A DNA stretch of 64,000 nt, taken from Burkholderiales bacterium (lineage in GTDB: Bacteria; Pseudomonadota; Gammaproteobacteria; Burkholderiales; Casimicrobiaceae). Below the pieces are notes generated by a model. The model ran no database searches. It was given only the letters and a program-made list of their open reading frames with translations, and had not been told where the DNA came from. Positions 5,760-55,843 of this stretch are shown here, one piece after another; position 1 is the first letter of the stretch; every line of letters begins with the position of its first letter. The stretch is from assembly GCA_016790165.1 (NCBI GenBank), contig JAEUPL010000001.1, positions 62,001 to 126,000 of the forward strand, read 5' to 3'. Position numbers and translations under genes: made by a program.

Positions 5760-6689
5760 ATGAATATCCTCACTCTGGGCGGCAGCGGTTTTGTCGGGCG
5801 TACGATCTGCGCGATGCTGGTGGCGCAGGGCGACACGGTGACCGTGCTCACGCGGCGCCGCGAGCACGCACACGCGCTTTCGTCGCTGCCGGGCGTCACG
5901 ATTGACGAGGGTGTCGATCTGTTCGCGGGCGATGCGCTCACGGCGCGGCTGCGCGGGCACGACGCGGTGATCAACCTCGTTGGCATCCTGCACGGTGATT
6001 TTCAGCGCAGTCACGTTACGCTGACCGAGCGCGTGATCGCCGCCTGCGAAGGCGCGGGCGTGCGTCGTTATCTGCACATGAGCGCGCTCGGTGCCGACGC
6101 GCAGGGACCGAGCGAATACCAGCGCAGCAAGGGACGGGCGGAAGCGCTGGTGCGTGGCGCTGGCCTCGACAGCACGGTGTTCGCGCCGTCGGTGATCTTC
6201 GGGCGCGACGACCGCTTTCTCAACCAGTTCGCGAATATGGTTGCGCTGCTGCCGCCGTGGATGCCGATGCTGTTGCCCGGCGGCTACGCGAGCTTTCAGC
6301 CGGTGTGGGTGAACGACGTGGCGCGCGCGTTCGTGTGCGCGCTGCGCGAACCGGCGAGCATCGGGCAGCGCTATGAGCTGGTGGGACCGGCGCGCTACAC
6401 CCTGGCCGAACTGGTGCGCTATGTCGTCACGCTGAGCGGCACGCGTCACGCGGTGGTCGGTTTGCCGCGTGCCGCAACCGCATTGGCCGGCGCGCTGCTG
6501 CAATTTGCTCCGGGCAAACCGATGACGCCGGACAACGTGAAATCGATGTCGGTCGACAACGTATCGTCCGCACCGTGGCCGGCGTTTGCCGGAGACCGAG
6601 CCGCGCTCGAGACCGTGGTCCCGTCGTGGCTTGGGCGTGCCGCCGCGTATGATCGGCTGGCCGATGTGCGTCGCCGCGCGCGGCATTGA
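5760..6689 (+). CDS. NDUFA9-like NAD(P)-binding oxidoreductase
   Basis: An extended short-chain dehydrogenase-like protein of 309 residues related to complex I accessory subunit NDUFA9 and to bacterial homologues annotated as complex I NDUFA9 subunit family protein. The Rossmann motif GGSGFVG lies at residues 6-12, followed by VTVLTRR (residues 26-32) which sets nucleotide preference, NLVGIL near 76, and a YQRSKGRAEALV stretch near 120 where the Lys takes the place of the SDR catalytic residue. C-terminal half has the substrate-side FQPVWVNDVARAF motif. The ATG at 5760 places the first beta strand at the start; an in-frame ATG eight codons upstream is less likely. It is probably membrane-associated or quinone-related, but no reaction is established. 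Confidence 0.82.
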   Translation: MNILTLGGSGFVGRTICAMLVAQGDTVTVLTRRREHAHALSSLPGVTIDEGVDLFAGDALTARLRGHDAVINLVGILHGDFQRSHVTLTERVIAACEGAGVRRYLHMSALGADAQGPSEYQRSKGRAEALVRGAGLDSTVFAPSVIFGRDDRFLNQFANMVALLPPWMPMLLPGGYASFQPVWVNDVARAFVCALREPASIGQRYELVGPARYTLAELVRYVVTLSGTRHAVVGLPRAATALAGALLQFAPGKPMTPDNVKSMSVDNVSSAPWPAFAGDRAALETVVPSWLGRAAAYDRLADVRRRARH

Positions 6690-6693
6690 CCGA

Positions 6694-6817
6694 TACAGCT
6701 TTTTGCCCATGTCGGCGGCCCCACGGTCATTTCCGCCTGTTTTTTTACAGAAGTCGATTTATGAGAAAAACGCCATGTAACGACCGTCGACTGGTCGTTA
6801 GCACCATCAAGCTGTTA
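6694..6817. repeat. Palindromic dispersed element, copy A
   Basis: A 124-base imperfect palindrome that begins four bases after the stop of the NDUFA9-like gene and ends 17 bases before the next start. The left end reads TACAGCTTTTTG and the right end CAAGCTGTTA; subterminal CGACCnnnnnnnGGTCG blocks and a T-run/A-run pair flank a central GTCGAT (6753-6758). The element centre (6755.5) falls exactly on that core. It shares this plan with 25252-25373, 37610-37731 and 55249-55370. Confidence 0.85.
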
Positions 6818-6834: not shown

Positions 6835-7785
6835 ATGAGCGCGCTCGACCCGGATCTCGCCGCGTACTTCGCCAACCTCGGCACGATGTTTTCGCCGCTG
6901 CCGGCGGACCCAACGCCGCTTGAGCGCCGCGCCCGCTACTGGGCGCTGGTGGGCCTGGGCCGCACGCCGCTGCCGTCGAGCGTGACGATGAACGACGTGC
7001 AGCTCGATCTGGCGTCCGGCCCGGTCGGCGTGCGCCTGTTCTACGGCCACGATGGCGCCGATGAGCCGGTGCCCACAATCATTTACTTTCACGGTGGCGG
7101 CTGGGTGGTCGGTGACACCGACACCCACTCCGTGACCTGCGCGCGCCTCGCGCACGAGGCCAATGCACTGGTGGTGAGCGTGGATTACCCGCTCGCACCC
7201 GAGGCGCATTGGCGCACCATCACCGATGCCTGCTTCGAGGCCGCGTCTGCCATCGCCGCCGATCGCGTGGCTCAGGCGGCCGGCACCCCCGTTGCCGTGG
7301 CGGGAGACAGCGCCGGCGCGCATCTCGCCGCCGTCACCGCGCTGCGCGTGCGCGACGAAGGCAATTTCCACATCGCGCTGCAGGCCTTGCTTTATCCCAC
7401 GATCGCCCCCGACTTCGGGACGCCCAGCTACATCGACTTCGCTGCCGGCCCCGGCCTCACGCGTGCCGACATGCAGTGGTACTGGCGCCAATACGCGGGC
7501 GACGACCAGGCGGTCAACGACTACCGCATCACCCCCACGCGCGCCGCATCGCACGCCGGCCTGCCACCGGCATACATCGTCACGGCCGGACGCGACCCGC
7601 TGCGCGACGAAGGCCGCAGCTACGGGCTGCAACTGCGTGGCGCGGGCATCGAGGTGGCGCACGATGAGTTCGACTCGCTGCCGCACGGCTTTTTGCGCAT
7701 GGCGAAGTACAGCGCCGCGACGGATGCCGCGATCGCGCGGATCAATCGCCGCATCGGAGAATCGCTGCGCGCATCGCGAAGCTGA
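6835..7785 (+). CDS. Alpha/beta hydrolase, hormone-sensitive lipase family
   Basis: A 316-residue cytosolic esterase. The oxyanion-hole motif HGGGW lies at residues 86-90, the nucleophile elbow GDSAG at about 157-161 with Ser159 as nucleophile, a likely acid Asp in AGRDPLRDE near 257, and the catalytic His in LPHGF near 283. This set and spacing are those of the HSL (family IV) esterases, which act on acyl esters of short to medium chains; the real substrate cannot be read from sequence. There is no signal peptide. The ATG at 6835 is preceded by GGAGCGCCGGC. A TauE/SafE permease gene begins 10 bases after its stop, so they may be cotranscribed. Confidence 0.88.
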   Translation: MSALDPDLAAYFANLGTMFSPLPADPTPLERRARYWALVGLGRTPLPSSVTMNDVQLDLASGPVGVRLFYGHDGADEPVPTIIYFHGGGWVVGDTDTHSVTCARLAHEANALVVSVDYPLAPEAHWRTITDACFEAASAIAADRVAQAAGTPVAVAGDSAGAHLAAVTALRVRDEGNFHIALQALLYPTIAPDFGTPSYIDFAAGPGLTRADMQWYWRQYAGDDQAVNDYRITPTRAASHAGLPPAYIVTAGRDPLRDEGRSYGLQLRGAGIEVAHDEFDSLPHGFLRMAKYSAATDAAIARINRRIGESLRASRS

Positions 7786-15297: not shown

Positions 15298-15460
15298 CAG
15301 GTTGCAGAAATACTTCACGCGGCGTGCAGAAACGCAGCCTCGAACGCAGGGCGGCGTTGGTTTTTTTGCCCATAGCGACGGCTATGGGCTGCAAAAGCCG
15401 CCTTGCCCTGCGTCCGATCTGCATTCCTGCCCCTCCGCGCAAGTACTTCAGCAGCCTGCT
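15296..15460. repeat. 165-base imperfect palindrome (MITE-like)
   Basis: Both ends read AGCAGG / CCTGCT, with roughly 80-base arms that pair around the loop GACG: GAAnTACTT, GCAGnAAnGCAG, TCGnACGCAGGGC and GCCCATAGC occur in both arms. The centre is GCCCATAGCGACGGCTATGGGC (15368-15389 region). No open frame is inside. Only one copy was seen in the window. It covers the last two bases of the flavin reductase stop and ends six bases before the ATG of the TPR gene, whose AGCAGG ribosome site directly follows it. Confidence 0.8.
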
Positions 15461-24079: not shown

Positions 24080-25108
24080 ATGCAAAAAGCACTGACGACC
24101 CCGCCGCACACGCCACGCAGTCGCCCGCTGACACTGGCCGGACTGCGCGGCTTCGAGGCGGCTGCACGGCTGGCCAGCCTGACGCAGGCAGCCTACGAGC
24201 TGAGCCTCACGCAGTCTGCGGTGAGTCGACAGGTGCAGGGCCTCGAGGACGAGCTGGGCGTGGCGCTCTTCGTGCGCAAGGCGCGCGAGATTGTGCTGAC
24301 GCCGGAGGGGCGCGAGTTTCTGCCGCTGGTGCAGCAGGTGCTGGCCGACTTGGACATCGGTGTTGAACGCTTGCGCCGCGATGTGAATTCGCCGCGTGTG
24401 GCGGTGACGACGTTTGCCTCGTTCGCGTCGCTCTGGTTGATTCCGCGCTTGCCGGGCTTTCGTGCGCTGCGTCCGAATGCGGACCTCGACATCGGCGCCA
24501 CAGACCGGTTGGTCGATCTCGCCAGCGCTGACGTTGACATCGCGATTCGCTATCTTGCCGCCGAGGCGGCGCCGCCAGAGGCCACGCTCCTGTTCGACGA
24601 AATGTTGTTTCCGCTGGTGAGCCCGAACTACCTGCGCACGGCGCCACCGCTCACGACGCTCGATGATCTGAAGGGGCATACGCTGATCGAGGCCACCTAC
24701 GGTGGGCGCGCCGAGTACCGCTCCTCGTGGCCCGGTTTTTTTGAGGCCGTGGGCCAGCCCGAGGTCAAGGGCCGCTCGCAGCTCAAGTTCGATTTCATCG
24801 CGCAAACCTTCCTCGCCGCGCAGAGCGGTCAGGGCGTCGTGCTGGCGCGCACCTACGGCGCCGATGTGTTCATGTCTGGCGGGCTGGTGCGACCGCTCGA
24901 TGTGGCCGTGGCGAGTGGCGCCGGTTGTTACCTGATGGTGGCCGATCGTGCGCGCGGTCGCAGCGAGGTGAAGGCCTTCGTTGAATGGCTGCTGGCCGAG
25001 GCAAAGCGTTTCAACGCGGCGCTGGAGGCCTGGATCGCCCGCAGCGGCGCCGCCCCGGCGCGGCGGGCGCGCGTGGCCATGCGTGGCATGCCGGGCCGCC
25101 GCGAGTGA
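24080..25108 (+). CDS. LysR family transcriptional regulator
   Basis: A 342-residue regulator. The winged helix-turn-helix is near residues 18-75 (LAGLRGFEAAARLASLTQAAYELSLTQSAVSRQVQGLEDELGVALFVR), followed by the LysR substrate-binding domain (VAVTTFASFASLWLIPRLPGF and onward). The protein resembles GcvA/AmpR-like LTTRs. Target is likely the divergent DUF2917 gene, via the inverted repeat at 23982. Its C-terminal residues (GAAPARRARVAMR) are an added basic tail beyond the usual domain. Followed by a repeat element (25252-25373) and the metalloprotease gene. Confidence 0.92.
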   Translation: MQKALTTPPHTPRSRPLTLAGLRGFEAAARLASLTQAAYELSLTQSAVSRQVQGLEDELGVALFVRKAREIVLTPEGREFLPLVQQVLADLDIGVERLRRDVNSPRVAVTTFASFASLWLIPRLPGFRALRPNADLDIGATDRLVDLASADVDIAIRYLAAEAAPPEATLLFDEMLFPLVSPNYLRTAPPLTTLDDLKGHTLIEATYGGRAEYRSSWPGFFEAVGQPEVKGRSQLKFDFIAQTFLAAQSGQGVVLARTYGADVFMSGGLVRPLDVAVASGAGCYLMVADRARGRSEVKAFVEWLLAEAKRFNAALEAWIARSGAAPARRARVAMRGMPGRRE

Positions 25109-25251: not shown

Positions 25252-25373
25252 TACAGCTTTTTGGCGTTATCGACCAGTCAGCGGTCGATATGGGTCGGTT
25301 TTTCTTGATGTCGACTTCGTAAGAAAACGCTGCCCATCGACCGTATGAGCGTCGTTGTGGCCAAAAAGTTGTA
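25252..25373. repeat. Palindromic dispersed element, copy B
   Basis: 122 bases with left end TACAGCTTTTTGG and right end CCAAAAAGTTGTA. The arms align along the whole length; CGGTCGAT, TGGG and a T-rich block pair with their reverse complements, and the centre is GTCGAC (25310-25315; exact centre 25312.5). It lies in the 322-base gap between lysR (stop 25108) and the metalloprotease (25431). The 143 bases before the element hold no frame or signal that I can support. The family is described under findings. Confidence 0.88.
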
Positions 25374-25430
25374 TCGGACGATTTGCCGCGTGCAGCCGCC
25401 TCGCCCGAATAGAAAGAACCAGAGGAACTG

Positions 25431-28208
25431 ATGAACTACCGTCTTCGTACGCTTCCCGCCGCTTTGATGGTGCTCGGCCTGGCCTCGTGCGCCACGGTCA
25501 CGCCGCCCGCAACCGCCGATGCCACCAAGGCCACCGCCACGACCGTGGCCGCCGCGACGGGCGACAGCAAAGCCGCCGCGCCGGCACCCGCAGCTGCCGC
25601 CAGCGCGGCCCGCCCCGGCGCTGCACCGGCCGCCCCCGGTGCGCCGAAACCCTTCGCCGATGTGATCAAGGACGCCAAAGAAGAAAAGGGCTTCTTCACC
25701 ACCTGGCGCAAGGACGACAAGGTGTGGATCGAAATCCCCGAAGCGATGTGGGACCGACCGTTCTTTTTCTCTGTGAACGTGACCCACAACATTGGCGATG
25801 CCGGACTGTACGGCAACCAGATGGGTGCGTTCCTCGCTGCCGGACGCGGCCAGTACGTCGCCAGTTTCCGCAAATTCGGCCCACAAGGGGTGCAGCTCAT
25901 CGCGCGCAACATGACGCACAGGGCGGCGAAAGATGCCCCGATTCGCCACGCGGTGGAGCGCAGTTTTTCCGACAGCCTGATCGCCAGCGCGCCGCTCGTC
26001 AGTGCACCGCACCCGGAGCGCAAGAGCGTGCTGGTCGAGGCCAACGCATTGCTCATCAATGATTTTCCGATGGCGGCGCAGCAGTTGGAGCAAACTTTCC
26101 GCCAGCCGTATGCGTTTGATGACAAGAATTCCAGCATTGAAAAGGTTCGCAACAGCGACACGGAAACCGGTTTTGCCGTGCGCGGGCACTACCGTCTTGC
26201 GCGCCTCGCGTTGCCGTCGCCGGTGCCCAGCCCGGCGCCAGCGCCGCGCGTCCCCGCCACGCTGCCGGATGTCCGCTCGCTGTTCATGGGGTACTACTAC
26301 GGATTCTCTCAGCTGCCTGCCAGCCCGATGCGTCCGCGGGAAGCGGACCCGCGCGTGGGTTACTTCACGACCGGCATCAACGACTTCACCAATCCCGACA
26401 AGCGTGAGCAGAAGACTCGCTACATCAATCGCTGGCGCCTGGAGAAGAAGGATCCAGGCGCTGCGCTGAGCGAGCCGAAGCAACCCATCGTCTACTGGCT
26501 CGACAAGAACATCCCGACCGCATATCGCAAGGCGGTGAGCGACGGCATTCTCGAGTGGAACAAGGCCTACGAGAAGATTGGTTTCAAGAACGCCATCGTG
26601 GTCAAGCAGCAGGGCGACGAGGATGATTTCGACACCTCAGCCACACGCTTTGCGTCGATTCGCTGGGTGGCCGGCAACAACATCCAGTTCGGTGCGCGGG
26701 GCCCGAGCAAGGTCGATCCGCGCAGCGGCGAAATTCTCGATGCCGACATCGAGATGAACGAAGACATCTCGCGCATCTACAGCGCACGCGTCAGCGAAGA
26801 TCCGCCGCGCCCGGTGGGCGCCGCACTCGCCGGCCTGTTCCGCAACTCCGGCGAGCTGTGCACCTATGCCGACCAGAAGCTCTCCGAGGCCGCGTTCGGC
26901 CTCGACCTGCTCGTGGCGCGGGGCGAGCTTGAGTACGGTTCGCCGGAAGCGGAATCGTGGATCATGGACGCCGTGAAGGACATCACCGCGCACGAGGTGG
27001 GCCATACGCTCGGCTTGCGCCACAACTTCAAGGCGTCGCTTGCGGTGACGCCGGAGCAGCTGCGCGATCCGAAGTTCGGTGCGGAGGTTGGGGTTTCGGC
27101 GTCCGTGATGGACTACAACGCACTCAACATCGCCACGAAGGACGAACGTCAGGGTCAGTACTCGATGATCACGGTCGGCCCGTACGACCTCTGGGCCATC
27201 GAGTACGGGTACAAGGAAACGACTCCGGAAAACGAGAAGGCGGAGCTGGCGAAGACGCTGTCGCGTGCGCTGGAGCCGGCGTTGGCGTACGCGACCGATG
27301 AAGATGCGGGTTACGGCGCAATACTCGAAGGCATTGACCCTGAAGTCAATCGCAGCGATCTCTCGAGCGATCCGCTAGGCTTTTATGAGAAGCGCTTCAC
27401 AGTCATCCGCGAACTCTGGGACCGCGTGCAGGCCAGGGAACTCGCGCCGGGAACGAAGTACGAACAACTGCGCCGCAATTTTCAGCGTGGCTTCAATCTC
27501 ATGGCGCAAGTCACGGAACTGGCGGCCAAGTATGTCGGCGGTGTCACCGTGTTGCGCGATGTCGCCGGCAGTGGCCGTCAGCCGCTCACGCCGGTGGACG
27601 CCGAGAAGCAGCGCCGCGCGCTGAATCTCCTCGCGAAGCACTTGTTTGCGGTGGACTCGTTCAAGTTCAAACCCGAGTTCCTCGGCAAACTGACGCCCGA
27701 TTTCGATGCGCGCTGGGACAGCGTTTGGGAAGACGATGTTGGCGTACCGTCGGTGGCCCCGATTGATCAATCGGTCGCGGGTCGGGTGTTTGGTCTGCAG
27801 CGCGCGGCGCTCATGCAACTGCTGCGCGATAGCGTCGCCGCGCGCCTCGTCGTCGCCCCCGAAAAACTGAACGACCCGTCGAAGTCCCTGGCGCTGCCCG
27901 AGCTGTACGCCACGCTGCAGAAGGCGATCTGGAGTGAGCTCGCAAGCGGCGCGCCGATCAGTATGATGCGTCGCAACTTGCAGCGCGAGCACGTTCGCCT
28001 GATGGCCGAAGCGGTCGCCAAGCCGAGCCCACGTGCACCGGCCGATGCGCGCAGCCTGCAACGCGAATTTGCCGGCGACCTGCTTGCGCAACTGCGCAGG
28101 GCCGCGGCGAAACCCGGGCTCGCGATCGAGACTCGGGCGCATCTCAACGAGTCGATTGCGCTGCTTGATGGCGCGCTCAAGGCACAGATCGCCAAGGTGA
28201 TTGGTTAG
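25431..28208 (+). CDS. Zinc-dependent metalloprotease (DUF5117/DUF4953-type), lipoprotein
   Basis: A 925-residue exported lipoprotein. A lipobox GLASC puts the acylated Cys at residue 20, followed by an Ala/Pro linker. The N-terminal DUF5118/DUF5117-like segments lead to a metzincin-type active site HEVGHTLGLRH (His521, Glu522, His525, His531) and a Met-turn VMDYNAL near 559. This family is annotated as zinc-dependent metalloprotease; it is not a classical secreted peptidase family with known substrate. The ATG at 25431 follows a GAGGAACTG ribosome site. The gene precedes a small exported protein and trmB. A palindromic element lies between this gene and lysR. Confidence 0.88.
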   Translation: MNYRLRTLPAALMVLGLASCATVTPPATADATKATATTVAAATGDSKAAAPAPAAAASAARPGAAPAAPGAPKPFADVIKDAKEEKGFFTTWRKDDKVWIEIPEAMWDRPFFFSVNVTHNIGDAGLYGNQMGAFLAAGRGQYVASFRKFGPQGVQLIARNMTHRAAKDAPIRHAVERSFSDSLIASAPLVSAPHPERKSVLVEANALLINDFPMAAQQLEQTFRQPYAFDDKNSSIEKVRNSDTETGFAVRGHYRLARLALPSPVPSPAPAPRVPATLPDVRSLFMGYYYGFSQLPASPMRPREADPRVGYFTTGINDFTNPDKREQKTRYINRWRLEKKDPGAALSEPKQPIVYWLDKNIPTAYRKAVSDGILEWNKAYEKIGFKNAIVVKQQGDEDDFDTSATRFASIRWVAGNNIQFGARGPSKVDPRSGEILDADIEMNEDISRIYSARVSEDPPRPVGAALAGLFRNSGELCTYADQKLSEAAFGLDLLVARGELEYGSPEAESWIMDAVKDITAHEVGHTLGLRHNFKASLAVTPEQLRDPKFGAEVGVSASVMDYNALNIATKDERQGQYSMITVGPYDLWAIEYGYKETTPENEKAELAKTLSRALEPALAYATDEDAGYGAILEGIDPEVNRSDLSSDPLGFYEKRFTVIRELWDRVQARELAPGTKYEQLRRNFQRGFNLMAQVTELAAKYVGGVTVLRDVAGSGRQPLTPVDAEKQRRALNLLAKHLFAVDSFKFKPEFLGKLTPDFDARWDSVWEDDVGVPSVAPIDQSVAGRVFGLQRAALMQLLRDSVAARLVVAPEKLNDPSKSLALPELYATLQKAIWSELASGAPISMMRRNLQREHVRLMAEAVAKPSPRAPADARSLQREFAGDLLAQLRRAAAKPGLAIETRAHLNESIALLDGALKAQIAKVIG

Positions 28209-35958: not shown

Positions 35959-37584
35959 TTATCCTGGCGACTTGTCCAGTATGTCCAGCAACTTCAGCCG
36001 CTGCACCTTGCCCGACGGACCTTTCGGCAATTCGTCGACGAAGCGGAAAACCGCGGGCGTTTTGTAACGACCGAGCTGTGCAATGCAGTGCTCACGCAGG
36101 GCCGCTTCGTCGGCGGACGCGCCGGGCTTGAGTACCACGGCGGCGAGGATGTCCTGGCCGTAGTTCTTGTCGGGGATGCCGACGGCGGCCGCCTCGAGCA
36201 CAGCGGGGTGCGCGAGCAGTGCCTCGTCAATCTCGCGCGGGGCGATATTTTCGCCCCCCTTGATGATGAGCTCCTTGATGCGTCCGGTGACGAAGTAAAA
36301 GCCGTCGCCGTCACGATGCCCGAGGTCGCCGGTGCGCAACCAGCCATCGCTGGTGAGCGCCTCCGCGGTCTTCTCGGGCGCATTCCAGTAGCCCGCCATC
36401 ACGTTGTCGCCGCGCAGTTGCAGCTCGCCGGTGGCGCCGTTCGGCAGCACGTCGCCGCTGTCGACGGCTACCACGCGCGCATCGACACCGCAAGGCAGGC
36501 CGGGGGTGCCGTATTTGCGGTGGCCCGCGTCCTGCGGGTTGCAAAACACGACCGAGGCGCACTCGGTCATCCCCATGGCTTCGATCACGCCGATGCCGAA
36601 GCGTCGTTCGAACGCCCGGTGCTGATCGGGCGGTAGCGGGGCCGACGCTGAGCGAGCAAAGCGGATGAACGGCCGTGCGGGCTCGCTCGCCTCACCGTCT
36701 GTTGCGGCGTTGAGCAGGTAGGCAATGATGGTCGGCACCACATTGATCCAGGTCGGCTGCCACGTGTCGACCCAGCCCCACCACGCGGAGGCCGAGAATC
36801 GGTGCGGCGCGACGATGCTGCCGCCGCTGACGAAGGGCGCGAGCGTGGCGATGCATTGTCCGTTGATGTGATACAGAGGCAGCGAGGAGAGCACACGGTC
36901 GGAAGGCGTCAGGCTGTGCCACGCCGCCACCGTGCGCGCGGCGTGCAGCAGGTTTCGATGCGTGAGCAGCGCGCCTTTGGGCTGACCGGTCGTGCCGGAG
37001 GTGTACATCAGCAGGGCGGCCTCGCTGCCGCGCGGCGTGCAGCGCGCGGCGGGGACGCCGGGGGGCGTGGGTTGGTCGGGCGCGGCACCATTCGCCGTGA
37101 GCTGCGCTGCCAGTGGTTGATCCACGTCCACGGTCAACACTGTCGGGAGCGGGCCTGCGCCGTGTTGAGCGCATCGGGCGACGGCGTCGTGCAGCACCGC
37201 CTCGTGTTCCCGCGAGACAAACACCAGTCGCGTTGCGCTGTGTGCGAGCACATACGCGAGCTGCGCCGCTTGCGATAGCAAATTGAGTGGCACCGAAACC
37301 CGCGCGCAAAGCATGGTCGCGAGAAAGATGGACGTGGTGGCGAGCCCGTTCGGCAGGAGAAATGCGACATGCCCGCCCGCACCCACGCCGCGCGCGGTGA
37401 GGAAGGTGTCCAGCGCCGCGACGTCGCGCTCAAGCGCAGCGTAAACGTGGCGGTGGCCGGTTTCTGGCGCGAGCAGGAGCGGAGCGTCTGGCTGCTGGGC
37501 GACATGCGCCGCAAAGACATCGGCGAGCGACGCGCCGGTCGGCGTGGATGCGGTGACGATGGAATTCGGTGGCGCGGACGTCAT
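35959..37584 (-). CDS. AMP-forming acyl-CoA ligase, SauT-like
   Basis: 541 residues of the ANL (acyl-CoA synthetase) superfamily with the P-loop LLMYTSGTTGQPKGALLTHRN near residues 200-221, then AMGMTECASVVFCN near 345, and C-terminal GELQLRGDNV, DGWLRTGDLGHRD and IKGGENIAPREID. In the sulfoacetate route of Cupriavidus necator, SauT makes sulfoacetyl-CoA; this gene is next to a SauS-like aldehyde dehydrogenase and xsc on the same strand, so I infer the same job, but ANL ligases are hard to assign by sequence. The ATG at 37584 is the family-like start; upstream 16 codons belong to the palindromic element C. Confidence 0.72.
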   Translation of the reverse strand: MTSAPPNSIVTASTPTGASLADVFAAHVAQQPDAPLLLAPETGHRHVYAALERDVAALDTFLTARGVGAGGHVAFLLPNGLATTSIFLATMLCARVSVPLNLLSQAAQLAYVLAHSATRLVFVSREHEAVLHDAVARCAQHGAGPLPTVLTVDVDQPLAAQLTANGAAPDQPTPPGVPAARCTPRGSEAALLMYTSGTTGQPKGALLTHRNLLHAARTVAAWHSLTPSDRVLSSLPLYHINGQCIATLAPFVSGGSIVAPHRFSASAWWGWVDTWQPTWINVVPTIIAYLLNAATDGEASEPARPFIRFARSASAPLPPDQHRAFERRFGIGVIEAMGMTECASVVFCNPQDAGHRKYGTPGLPCGVDARVVAVDSGDVLPNGATGELQLRGDNVMAGYWNAPEKTAEALTSDGWLRTGDLGHRDGDGFYFVTGRIKELIIKGGENIAPREIDEALLAHPAVLEAAAVGIPDKNYGQDILAAVVLKPGASADEAALREHCIAQLGRYKTPAVFRFVDELPKGPSGKVQRLKLLDILDKSPG

Positions 37585-37609: not shown

Positions 37610-37731
37610 TACAGCTTTTTGCCGAGAACCACCGGAAGACAGCCATCAGCGCTAGAAAATGCATTATCTCGACAGTTGGGAAAAACCGCTTGCAGTGGCC
37701 GCCGGCTGGTGGTTAGAACTAAAAAGCTGTT
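37610..37731. repeat. Palindromic dispersed element, copy C
   Basis: 122 bases between the SauT-like start (37584) and the SauS-like gene (stop 37719). Left end TACAGCTTTTTG, right end AAAAAGCTGTT; the core TCGA lies at 37669-37672, exactly at the centre (37670.5). Inner blocks ACCACC and AAAAACCGC pair with GGTGGT-type sequence in the opposite arm. It overlaps the 3' end of the upstream coding sequence: the minus-strand TAG at 37719-37721 lies in the element end. It sits inside the likely sulfonate operon. Confidence 0.88.
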
Positions 37732-39140
37732 GAACGCCGACCCGATTGTGCAAGATAGTCACCGAGCAAGCGTTCAACGTCGGCTTCGCGCGGTGCAATC
37801 GGCCGGGCGATGCGGGTGATGTTCAGGAAATGCCGGTAGCCCAGGTTCTCGGAGAAGCTGTTGCCACCCCAGGTGCCGCAGCCCATCGACAGCGAAAACG
37901 GCAGCCCATTGTCGAAACTGCCCCCGGTGGCGATGCAGTGCGCCTGATTGACGATGACGCGCGCGACCGGCAGTGCGAGGCCCAGCCTCATGGCCAGCGC
38001 ATCCGCTGCGCCGGGCGCAGCGTGCAGCCCGACCGAATGACCAGCCCCCTGGTAGGCGTAGATCGTGGCCACCTGCGCCGCCGCCGCGTCGAAATCGGCG
38101 GCTCGGTACACGGCGAGTACCGGCGAGAGTTTCTCTCCAGAAAACGGGAAATCCGGGCCGACGCCCGTTTCCTCGACCATCAGCACATGGGCGGTCGCCG
38201 CACGATCAATGCCGGCCGCGCGCGCAATCTCTCCCGCCGATTTGGCTGTGAGGTCTGCGGAGAGTTTGCCTGCCGGGAACAGCACCGCTTGCAGTTGGGC
38301 CTTCTCTGCAGCGTCGAGCAGCACGCAACCTTGCGCCGCAAGTGCCGCGAGCATCGCCTCATAAACGGCCGCATCAATCACCGCGCTGTTCTCGCTGGAG
38401 CAACTGGTCGCGTTGTCGAAGGTTTTCGAGCGCACGATGCGCTTGGCGGCCCCCGTGAGATCGGCGCTGCGGTCGACGATCACCGACACGTTGCCGGCAC
38501 CGACACCGAACGCGGGTGTGCCGCTCGAATAGGCGGCCTTGATATTGGCCTGCGACCCGGTGGCGACGACCAGATCAACCTGCTTCAGCAGTTCGTTGGT
38601 TAACGCCTTGTTGACTGGCGCCGGCAGCAGTTGCACCAGGTCACGCGGCGCACCGATCCGGTCGAATTCCTCGTGCACATAGCTGAGCAGGAGCGCAGCC
38701 GTGGAATAACCTTTTGGCGACGGAGCGAGAATGATGGCGTTGCGGCCCTTCATCGCGTTGATGATCATGTTCGCCGGCGTCGCCCCTGGGTTGGTTGAGG
38801 GCGTAATGGCCCCGACCACGCCGGCCGGGCGGGCGATTTCGGTGATGCCGAGTGCGGCGTCTTCGTTGATCACGCCGACCGAGCGCGCGCCATGCAGATC
38901 GCGGATCAGACCGAGCGTCTTGCGATGGTTCTTCTGGATCTTGTCGGGTACGTTGCCGAGACCGGTGTCGTGCACCGCGAGCTCCGCCAATGCGCGGTTG
39001 CGAGCGGGCTCCATGATTGCCCACGCCGCAGCGGCGACCAGGCGGTCAGCGCCTGTCTGATCGTAGCGGTCCGCGATCACCTGCGCGGCGCGCGCTTTTG
39101 CCACGAGACCAGCGATGGTCTCGGCTTCGGCAGATCGCAT
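37719..39140 (-). CDS. CoA-acylating sulfoacetaldehyde dehydrogenase, SauS-like
   Basis: 473 residues of the acylating aldehyde dehydrogenase group related to SauS and to EutE/AdhE-type CoA-dependent enzymes. NAD(P)-binding and active-site stretches are AGVVGAITPSTNPGATPANMIINAMK near 107-132, KTFDNATSCSSENSAVID (catalytic Cys247) and SGEKLSPVLAVY. In the sulfoacetate route the enzyme reduces sulfoacetyl-CoA to sulfoacetaldehyde with NADPH, which Xsc then cleaves. Next to xsc and a SauT-like ligase this role is likely but unproven. Starts six bases after the Bug receptor stop. Its last residues and stop are encoded by the end of repeat C. Confidence 0.78.
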   Translation of the reverse strand: MRSAEAETIAGLVAKARAAQVIADRYDQTGADRLVAAAAWAIMEPARNRALAELAVHDTGLGNVPDKIQKNHRKTLGLIRDLHGARSVGVINEDAALGITEIARPAGVVGAITPSTNPGATPANMIINAMKGRNAIILAPSPKGYSTAALLLSYVHEEFDRIGAPRDLVQLLPAPVNKALTNELLKQVDLVVATGSQANIKAAYSSGTPAFGVGAGNVSVIVDRSADLTGAAKRIVRSKTFDNATSCSSENSAVIDAAVYEAMLAALAAQGCVLLDAAEKAQLQAVLFPAGKLSADLTAKSAGEIARAAGIDRAATAHVLMVEETGVGPDFPFSGEKLSPVLAVYRAADFDAAAAQVATIYAYQGAGHSVGLHAAPGAADALAMRLGLALPVARVIVNQAHCIATGGSFDNGLPFSLSMGCGTWGGNSFSENLGYRHFLNITRIARPIAPREADVERLLGDYLAQSGRRSTAF

Positions 39141-53978: not shown

Positions 53979-55214
53979 ATGGCGCTCTATGCATTTGACG
54001 CGGTTCGTGCCAACGGCGAGGCGGTCTCGGCGCAAGTAGAAGCAGCGAGCGAAGCCGAGGCCGTCGAGCGGGTGCGTGAGCAGGGCCTCATCCTGCTCAA
54101 GATTCAAACGGCAGCGTCGGCGGCGTTCGCCTCACACGAAAAAAAATCCAGCACCTTAGGCCGGTTGTTCGCATCGAAAAAGGTTTCGCGCGAACAAATC
54201 GTCGCGTTCACGCGCGATCTTGCGAATCTGATCGGCGCCGGGTTGCCGCTCGACCGCGCTTTCGAGCTGCTGGTTGGGCTCGCTGATACGGCGCCAGTCG
54301 CGGCGTTGCTCCAGGACCTGCGTGATCGCGTGCGCAGCGGCAAATCACTGTCGCAGGCGCTGGCTGAGCATCCCAAACTGTTCGACCGGCTCTACGTCAA
54401 CATGGTTCGCGCCGGCGAAGCATCTGGCACGCTGGGGCCAGTGCTGGCGCGCATCTCGGAATTTCAGGAGCGCAGTGCCGAGTTGCGCTCCAGCGTGCAA
54501 TCGTCGCTGATGTATCCCATCGTGCTGGTGGCGGTGGCCGTGGTTGCCGTATTGACGATGCTCTTTTTCGTGGTGCCGAAATTCGAGAGTACCTTCAAAC
54601 AATTCGGCAAGGCGCTGCCGCCCGCGACAGAAAACCTGCTCGCCCTGTCGCACTGGCTGCGCAGCGACGGCTGGATGCTGCTGATCGGTCTGGTGGCGAT
54701 CGTGATCCTCGTGCGCGGTCGCCTGCGCACGCCGCAAGGGCAGCTTAACTGGCACCGCCGCAAGCTGACGCTCCCGGTGCTCGGTGACTTGTTCAGCAAG
54801 ATCGAGGTCGCGCGTTTTGCCCGCACACTCGGCACACTGCTCGGCAACGGCGTGAGCCTGTTGCCTGCGCTGACCATCGTGAAAGACACGGTGGACAACC
54901 GGGCACTGGCGGGCTCGCTGGATGGCGTGCTCACTCGGCTCAAGGCCGGGCAGGGCTTCGCCCGCCCGCTGATGGAAACCGGCCTTTACCCGAAGCTCGC
55001 GGTGCACATGGTGGCCGTAGGCGAGGAGACCGGGCGGCTGGACAGCATGCTGGTCAAGGTGGCCGATGTGTACGATCAGGAAGTCAACACGGCGCTGAAA
55101 CGCGCGCTCGGATTGCTTGAGCCGGTGCTGATCCTCACTCTGGCGGTCGTCGTGGGCGGCATCATCTACGCGCTGATGAGCGCACTGCTCGGCCTCACGG
55201 AATTTACCGGCTGA
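53979..55214 (+). CDS. gspF: Type II secretion inner-membrane platform protein GspF
   Basis: 411 residues with the repeated GspF fold: first cytosolic domain with LGRLFASKKVSREQIVAFTRDLANLIGAGLPLDRAFELL and a second copy with LFSKIEVARFARTLGTLLGNGVSLLPALTIV, and three membrane helices (about 172-197, 225-243 and the C-terminal one). It connects GspE to the pseudopilus. It starts seven bases after gspE. After its stop a palindromic element D (55249-55370) separates it from gspG. Confidence 0.95.
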   Translation: MALYAFDAVRANGEAVSAQVEAASEAEAVERVREQGLILLKIQTAASAAFASHEKKSSTLGRLFASKKVSREQIVAFTRDLANLIGAGLPLDRAFELLVGLADTAPVAALLQDLRDRVRSGKSLSQALAEHPKLFDRLYVNMVRAGEASGTLGPVLARISEFQERSAELRSSVQSSLMYPIVLVAVAVVAVLTMLFFVVPKFESTFKQFGKALPPATENLLALSHWLRSDGWMLLIGLVAIVILVRGRLRTPQGQLNWHRRKLTLPVLGDLFSKIEVARFARTLGTLLGNGVSLLPALTIVKDTVDNRALAGSLDGVLTRLKAGQGFARPLMETGLYPKLAVHMVAVGEETGRLDSMLVKVADVYDQEVNTALKRALGLLEPVLILTLAVVVGGIIYALMSALLGLTEFTG

Positions 55215-55248: not shown

Positions 55249-55370
55249 TTCAGCTTTTTGGCGATAGCGGCCAGCGGGCGGTCGTTGGAGCCTGTTTTTT
55301 TGGCGAGTCGACTTTGGAAATAATTGGGCTATAACGACCAGCCAGCCGTCGCGGCAAGCAAAAAGTTGTT
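55249..55370. repeat. Palindromic dispersed element, copy D
   Basis: 122 bases, left end TTCAGCTTTTTGG and right end GCAAAAAGTTGTT, with GTCGAC at 55307-55312 exactly at the centre (55309.5). It lies in the gspF-gspG gap: 34 bases after the gspF stop, 38 bases before the gspG ATG, so it interrupts the otherwise close gsp operon. It shares internal blocks (GGCGATAGCGGCCAG, CGGTCGTT) with copies A and B. Confidence 0.88.
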
Positions 55371-55408: not shown

Positions 55409-55843
55409 ATGAAACCACGCACTCACACCCGCCGTCCGCAGCAACGCGGCTTCACCCTGATGGAACTGCTCGCGGTGATCATCATCATCGGCGTGCTGGC
55501 GGCGACGGTCGGCGGGCGCTTCCTTGGTCAGACCGAAAGCGCCAAGGCCGGCGTCGCCAAGACGGAAATGGGGCAGATCGTTCAGGCGCTTGATCTGTTC
55601 AAACTCGAAACGGGCCGCTACCCGGCGGCGCAAGAGGGACTCGAAGCGCTGATCAAGAACCCGGGCAACGTGCCGAACTGGAATGGCCCGTACTTCAAGA
55701 AAGACAACATCAAGGATCCGTGGGGTAACGATTACAAATACACCAATCCCGGCCCCAACAACACGCCTTTTGAGATCAAGTCGCTCGGCGCCGACGGCAA
55801 GGAGGGCGGCGACGGCCCGAATGCCGACATCGTCAAGGGCTAG
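55409..55843 (+). CDS. gspG: Major pseudopilin GspG
   Basis: 144 residues with a prepilin leader: GspO cleaves between Gly14 and Phe15 in QRGFTLMELL, leaving N-methyl-Phe and Glu5 (Glu19 here). The C-terminal domain matches GspG: GRYPAAQEGLEALIKNPGNVPNWNGPYFKKDNIKDPWGNDYKY and FEIKSLGADGKEGGDGPNADI, including the calcium-binding end. It polymerises into the T2SS pseudopilus. ATG at 55409 has CAGGAG upstream; the longer frame comes from the element D flank. Confidence 0.97.
   Translation: MKPRTHTRRPQQRGFTLMELLAVIIIIGVLAATVGGRFLGQTESAKAGVAKTEMGQIVQALDLFKLETGRYPAAQEGLEALIKNPGNVPNWNGPYFKKDNIKDPWGNDYKYTNPGPNNTPFEIKSLGADGKEGGDGPNADIVKG

Follow-up and report, generated by a model that had tools for sequence, protein, structure and literature searches.

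Dispersed sites that are recognized by proteins, such as matS, parS and the dialects of the DNA-uptake sequences, are roughly 10 to 20 bp in length and carry a partly lineage-specific wording. The sites described below are written in dialects as well, but they extend over 122 bp and hold several blocks at fixed distances.

Larger elements offer a closer match in size. ERIC elements and MITEs are palindromic and intergenic, measure around 127 bp at full length, and are present in tens to hundreds of copies, as given in excerpts of two reports (PMC10969869, PMC2267715), and the sites examined here share their symmetry, intergenic location, approximate size and high copy number. However, the same excerpts present the ERIC of E. 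coli as predicted to fold into one long stem-loop, and ERIC as complete in part only (128 of 241 copies in Y. pestis), whereas the sites here give no sign of hairpin constraint and include no truncated copy in the DNA fetched. Near-random linkers, species dialects and the lack of a target duplication separate them further from ERIC, a separation that rests on descriptions of ERIC and not on its sequence. REP/BIME palindromes likewise have many extragenic copies, for which roles in supercoiling and termination have been proposed (excerpt of PMC3733652). Their units measure 20-40 bp, in contrast to a single 122-bp unit that lacks signs of a constrained hairpin.

Two other systems resemble the sites in geometry. 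The DNA gyrase motif of E. coli spans 130 bp, is symmetric about staggered cuts that are 4 bp apart, and has a 10.75-bp periodic GC content in both flanks (PMC6379681, in part). The motif is degenerate and forms no repeat family, whereas the sites reported here are base-specific, hold about 100 bits and were found in one genus. The CNE of Alphabaculovirus is also long and non-coding, has a conserved length and keeps its conserved clusters at fixed positions (PMC3989284, in part), but it is a viral element, whereas the present sites occur many times per bacterial genome. No paper on a family matching these sites came up in the open-access literature searched, and the first-pass annotation of this DNA likewise knew of no described family with these ends.

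A family of long palindromic sites

The window (the whole stretch of 64,000 nucleotides that was analyzed) had been annotated as carrying four related palindromes, each centred on TCGA and located between genes of the same direction. All four are present where they had been placed (Table 1), with TCGA as the middle four bases of each, and a simple gene caller assigns codirectional neighbors to every copy. The copies can be aligned with one another and form a real family with matched ends, CGACC/GGTCG blocks, T/A runs and TCGA centres. The symmetry of the copies and their central TCGA are borne out, but pairing between the arms does not extend from end to end as had been claimed. Complementarity between the arms is 0.62 for the copy at 25252, 0.49 for 37610, 0.57 for 55249, and 0.34 for 6694, where the count is ungapped and one arm is 1-2 bases longer. 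When the whole window was scanned, scores of 42 to 121 bits were obtained at the four sites and -60 at the next different place, and the reversed window, used as a control, gave no more than -38.5 bits.

Table 1. Palindromic sites, example blocks and flanking genes in the window.
Feature	Coordinates	Strand	Remarks
Site 1	6694..6817	.	centre TCGA 6754-6757; one arm 1-2 bases longer
NAD-epimerase-like gene	5760-6689	+	flank of site 1
alpha/beta-hydrolase gene	6835-7785	+	flank of site 1
Site 2	25252..25373	.	centre TCGA 25311-25314
LysR-type gene	24080-25108	+	flank of site 2
met-zincin-like gene	25431-28208	+	flank of site 2
Site 3	37610..37731	.	centre TCGA 37669-37672
AMP-binding enzyme gene	35959-37584	-	flank of site 3
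aldehyde-dehydrogenase-like gene	37719-39140	-	flank of site 3
Site 4	55249..55370	.	centre TCGA 55308-55311
gspF-like gene	53979-55214	+	flank of site 4; type II secretion
gspG-like gene	55409-55843	+	flank of site 4; type II secretion
Site 4 outer block CAGCTTTTTG (example)	55251..55260	+	mirrored at the site's other end
Site 4 central block AGTCGACT (example)	55306..55313	+	

A search with a profile built from the four copies, which had been recommended as a check, recovered further copies in the same genome, the best new one with an E value of 3e-22. This host genome (G000) consists of 3,761,777 bases in 41 contigs and contains the end CAGCTTTTTG 78 times, versus 9 occurrences of the pattern read backwards. 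With at most 3 mismatches allowed, a search for 24 fixed bases distributed across 114 positions identifies at least 187 fixed-spacing sites in its 3.76 Mb, or approximately one per 20 kb, and 0 in the reversed control. With the sequence-only profile R1, 150 of 1157 candidates in G000 were scored and all 150 were significant, corresponding to about 75 sites counted on both strands. Because no more than 150 candidates from any genome were scored in the profile searches, and 55-59 in the two large runs, the numbers of matches are lower bounds. None of the 16 single-hit records outside assemblies JAGNQL01 and JAKPSO01, which their isolate names suggest to be of sewage type, scores as a site.

The copies were assembled in several sets. 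From the 26 first copies, L020 was left out of the first profile, and L020, L025 and the window copy at 6694 were left out of alignment A2. Alignment A3 comprises 64 of 86 references. The 70-copy set used below was collected anew by score and is a fetched subset of the sites (at least 187) in G000.

Architecture of the site

An ungapped symmetric profile derived from the 70 distinct G000 copies holds approximately 102 bits. Its conserved blocks, from the outside inwards, are wwCAGCTTTTTG, A.CGAC, CGGTCGTT.CAG, an A/T run located 11-15 bp from the centre, and the central AAGTCGACTT. In G000 the middle block reads AACGACC-N7-GGTCGTT and the outer block (A)CAGCTTTTTG. Between the blocks the linkers are near-random, with many positions near 0 bits, and pairwise identity among the 70 copies has a median of 0.57 and a maximum of 0.72.

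The spacing of the blocks is fixed. In G000, 126 of 140 arms carry the outer block 57 bp away from the centre (3 carry it at 56 or 58 bp, and 11 are unreadable by the pattern), as do 43 of 46 in G008; in G015 the distance is 56 bp for 41 of 46 arms. A/T content is periodic within 9.8-11 bp in the single arms of five species (p 0.0005 to 0.0115), which were tested after a spectrum over both arms had peaked at 9.5 bp. The period is not clean, and the best value for G011 is 7.6.

All 140 half-sites above threshold reside within complete sites, and the few that have a low-scoring partner, for example those at 6694, L025 and L137, reflect register shifts or small indels. Neither solitary half-sites nor a transposon bounded by half-sites was found in approximately 344 kb of overlapping fetched DNA. 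This negative carries more weight in the window and in the first 30 loci, retrieved with the 10-base end alone, than in the majority of loci, which were fetched for a complete match.

Tests for covariation of the two arms

The first-pass annotation proposed that each transcript strand could fold into a single long hairpin. This proposal fails on two counts, since the arms do not covary and the sites fold no better than chimeras made by swapping arms between copies. Among the 70 G000 copies the arms of one site match at 0.540 versus 0.550 after permutation (z -1.8, or -1.5 when G-U pairs are allowed). The corresponding z values are 0.27 for G008 (n=23), -0.59 for G013 (n=21), -1.43 for G015 (n=23) and -1.5 for G011 (n=40), and the value of +1.57 for G005 derives from 5 sites only. 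Two enforced extra pairs per copy would yield a z of about 3.7 in this test, and one such pair about 0.95. Complementarity within one arm around position -34 is close to expectation.

Most of the top mutual information values belong to adjacent columns. A high value is also seen for the mirror pair -47/+47; its complementarity, however, is below expectation, and mirror pairs are inflated by counting on both strands. In folding predictions for five species the real sites perform no better than the arm-swapped chimeras (p 0.71 to 0.96). Both fold better than shuffled sequence (-43.2 kcal/mol for real G000 sites versus -30.7 for shuffled ones), as is expected because the consensus is symmetric. 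The lack of arm covariation and of extra folding indicates that the symmetry belongs to the double-stranded motif. A hairpin RNA or a cruciform thus finds no support in the arm tests of G000, G008, G013, G015 and G011, with the 5 sites of G005 too few to decide, nor in the folding of chimeras.

Dialects and phylogenetic range

The outer block, the A/T run and the centre are common to the species, whereas the middle block and sometimes the spacing differ. In G000 and G008 the middle block is CGACC...GGTCGTT or nearly so, whereas G015 carries ACGACC...GGGGCTA. The G013 version is GCATCCATAACGGGCTTGG, and there the distance to the outer block is 57 bp in 25 arms and 56 bp in 15. The G011 version, CAGCTTTTTTG...ATGCCTTATGAAATAAGGGCTA...TTTTCGAAAA, is present in all 40 stretches fetched for that genome. 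When arms are classified by middle block, 119 of the 140 in G000 are GGTCGTT-like, 10 are GGGC-like and 11 are undecided, whereas all 42 in G013 are GGGC-like (GGGCTT-like). The classifier leaves 39 of 46 G015 arms and 40 of 80 G011 arms undecided. Sites with one arm of each kind make up 8 of the 70 in G000.

Dialect and the gspF tree are not in simple agreement. In this tree G000 is placed, with weak support, beside G005, G012 and G013, yet its middle block is shared with G003 and G008.

Two kinds of arm, CCGCATCC and TGACGTCC, occur in G013 (L176-L195), where the outer block lies either 57 or 56 bp out, and one arm of each spacing is found in 12 of 20 readable sites.

Among the genomes searched, matches to the family are restricted to the genus of the host. 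Profile R1 matches 13 of 60 genomes, all of which belong to the genus. Profile R2, which was built from five species, matches 16 of the 17 members of the genus. When it was run across the family under stricter filters, it matched 15 of 64 genomes, with none among the 47 outside the genus. Profile R3, which represents the second dialect, matches 6 of the 7 genus members on which it was run, and in five of these the number of matches ranges from 59 to at least 150; the search beyond the genus used R1 and R2. G016 gives no match to R1, R2 or R3, and G009 gives few. These two are among the smaller genomes of the genus (2.6 Mb for G016 and 2.5 Mb for G009) and are paired in the gspF tree.

Retention at orthologous places

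Comparison of the flanks of the 70 G000 sites with those of 23 sites from G008, 21 from G013 and 23 from G015 revealed six pairs in which both flanks match and several in which one does. Linker identity is 0.61 and 0.68 in two pairs from close species. In ten more distant pairs it drops to 0.23 to 0.36, with 0.48 to 0.82 at block positions. Sites therefore persist at orthologous places after their linkers have become saturated. Base-specific blocks, fixed spacing, free linkers and orthologous retention are together the features expected of a family of dispersed chromosomal recognition sites.

The interval between gspF and gspG (site 4) is readable in all 17 genomes. A site is present in 10 of them, with scores of 10.4 to 125 bits in intergenic regions of 194-277 bp, and is absent from the other 7, where the score is -69 bits or lower and the intergenic region measures 21-97 bp; reversed loci, which serve as the null for orthologous places, reach at most -25 bits. 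The 10 genomes with the site form one side of the 92/91 branch in the gspF tree and include all members of that clade.

Site 2, upstream of the met-zincin gene, has a wider distribution. It is found in 13 genomes from both main clades at 4.3 to 120 bits, is weakest in G002 (4.3 bits), and scores best in each genome with that genome's own dialect or a related one. There is none in G007, G009 or G016, and G004 is without a matching region. Its presence across both main clades in local dialects indicates that some sites already existed when the main clades separated and have since switched dialect without moving. Site 3 is present in G000, G005, G012 and G013 and, in the second dialect, in G011. 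It is doubtful in G010 (-4 bits), and none is found in G001, G003, G004, G006, G008, G014 or G015. Its absence from several genomes indicates that sites are gained or lost.

On contig C169 of G008, the interval between the LysR-type gene and the met-zincin gene is enlarged by over 2 kb, and within 3.7 kb there are two sites (L094 and L109). The middle block of L109, GGGGGTTAAA/AAAACCCC, is unlike the dialect of G008.

Gene context

For 137 sites from four species, a simple codon-usage gene caller placed 72 between codirectional genes, 45 between convergent and 17 between divergent genes; 1 falls within a called gene, and 2 could not be assigned. Convergent gaps are thus favored over divergent ones (p 0.0005), whereas gene pairs of these two types occur with similar frequency in the window (8 and 9). 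Of the 72 sites in codirectional gaps, 52 lie closer to the stop codon of the upstream gene.

The 18 flanking proteins examined have unrelated functions, including alanyl-tRNA synthetase, transketolase, carbamoyl-phosphate synthase and type II secretion. A regulon was rejected as an explanation on this basis.

In several species the met-zincin site is located between a promoter-like stretch and the start codon (25373-25431 in the window, and L093, L096, L100 and L103), which contrasts with the usual placement on the stop side.

A putative architectural recognition site

On balance we think it probable, if far from certain, that each copy is a two-fold-symmetric double-stranded recognition site for a putative architectural protein that possibly wraps DNA. 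The fixed spacing, the two-fold symmetry and the A/T steps about every 10 bp in each arm suggest a dimeric or larger protein, around which the DNA would bend or wrap and which would contact a single face of it. Selection by such a protein might then keep the conserved blocks in place. Since the sites are mostly located close behind genes, but also inside an operon, and beside genes of unrelated function, the likely role would be in chromosome architecture, perhaps as a boundary of supercoils or domains or as a loading place for a topoisomerase, rather than in the control of one regulon.

The size and number of the sites weigh against this reading: at approximately 100 bits they are far longer than usual bacterial operators, and some 190 of them cannot arise by point mutation, so that a mechanism for their dispersal must have existed. 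The unclean A/T period, the positive z of G005, the discord between dialects and the gspF tree, the lack of matches in G016 and the patchy distribution of site 3 also count against it. The sites may have spread early in the genus, probably with a mobile step, and may have been kept thereafter. Later genome-wide shifts of the middle block, and of the outer spacing by 1 bp in some species, are what would be expected if the sites follow a binding protein that changes.

It is a serious possibility, though somewhat short of a probable one, that the family exemplifies a new kind of chromosomal nucleoprotein site: nucleosome-sized, base-specific and wrapped with two-fold symmetry, present about 190 times per genome at gene ends in one genus, and with dialects that co-evolve with a putative architectural protein. 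Similarly, these new dispersed chromosomal recognition sites might deserve a class of their own, a proposal that we advance tentatively. If this is correct, bacteria have base-specific sites as long as the DNA of a wrapped particle, in numbers close to two hundred per chromosome, and recognition has changed several times within one genus with the sites following. The 17 available genomes would make the co-evolution of a chromosome-wide binding code and its protein directly testable. Moreover, intergenic palindromes are usually filed as mobile debris, and these could be re-examined by arm permutation, linker saturation and orthologous retention.

Alternative explanations

The main alternative is that the sites are old MITEs of the ERIC, Correia or RUP type, meaning non-autonomous elements with terminal inverted repeats that were mobilized in trans and are now partly used by the host. 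We regard this as unlikely. A likeness to ERIC or NEMIS elements had been pointed out in the first pass, and it holds for size. The intergenic location, the symmetry, the TA-like ends and the clade-wise difference at gspF-gspG also fit a MITE, and some 190 dispersed copies need a mobile step. Furthermore, a neutrally decaying palindrome would lack arm covariation as well, so the arm test alone does not exclude a MITE.

A search for target-site duplications, however, returned neither TA nor any longer duplication. TA flanks both ends of 10 of the 70 G000 sites (expected 10.0) and of 9 of the 23 G008 sites (expected 8.5), and identical end dinucleotides occur at 12 G000 sites versus a shuffled mean of 11.5. 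The end dinucleotides of the two sides are independent, with TA at 53 and AA at 54 of 140 G000 ends. Flanking repeats of 4, 5, 6, 8 or 9 bp appear at no more than 1 of the 70 G000 sites at any offset tested. At gspF-gspG, which is filled in 10 genomes and empty in 7, the empty DNA is too diverged to yield a junction. Likeness over the whole length together with decayed or truncated members, as a MITE would lead one to expect, was not seen: conserved blocks at fixed spacing stand beside near-random linkers, the most similar pair among 70 copies reaches the identity of 0.72 given above, and the half-sites in the fetched DNA all belong to complete sites. Old sites at orthologous places are, in addition, written in the local dialect. 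The mobile-element reading is therefore poorly supported by the lack of target duplication, the random linkers, the fixed spacing and the orthologous retention, and a recognition site for an architectural protein remains our preferred explanation.

An improbable explanation is that the sites are strong sites for DNA gyrase. The enzyme would then position its cleavage gate at the four central bases, wrap the 122-bp site and remove positive supercoils behind genes. The length of 122 bp, the symmetry about TCGA and the A/T phasing in the arms parallel the E. coli motif, and the stop-side and convergent bias suits such a function. Length and symmetry thus agree, and periodicity is significant in single arms, but the best period varies. 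In addition, the E. coli motif is degenerate, whereas the present sites are base-specific, differ by species and were found in one genus only. Repeats of the GyrA C-terminal domain, scored for presence alone, occur 6 or 7 times in 16 of 17 genomes, including that of the site-less G016, and none was recovered in G013. We regard the likeness to the 130-bp motif as an analogy only. Because gyrase is universal and its C-terminal repeats are found with or without sites, a putative genus-specific protein is preferred over gyrase.

The sites could also be targets or dispersal sites of a putative recombinase or homing system, in which case retention would reflect drive and not use by the host. Such a system would account for spreading and for genome-wide dialects, and two-fold symmetry suits a pair of recombinase subunits. 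We nevertheless consider it quite improbable, since the linkers are not homogenized within species and whole sites have thus not been copied recently. Viral contigs gave 0 exact matches, although this test is weak, since no more than some 29 of the 187 G000 sites fit a comparable exact pattern.

Finally, a transcribed hairpin serving as a terminator, an RNase III target or an mRNA stabilizer is very improbable, for although the sites are located behind genes and their symmetric consensus lets transcripts fold better than shuffled sequence, arm covariation and any folding gain over chimeras are absent and the window contains no Rfam match at the gathering score.

Other inverted repeats in the window

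An inverted repeat at 15340-15417, which was not recovered as a member of the family, lies 3' of a gene on the + strand. Its 37-nucleotide arms are 73% complementary around 4 nucleotides, and the structure may be a terminator.
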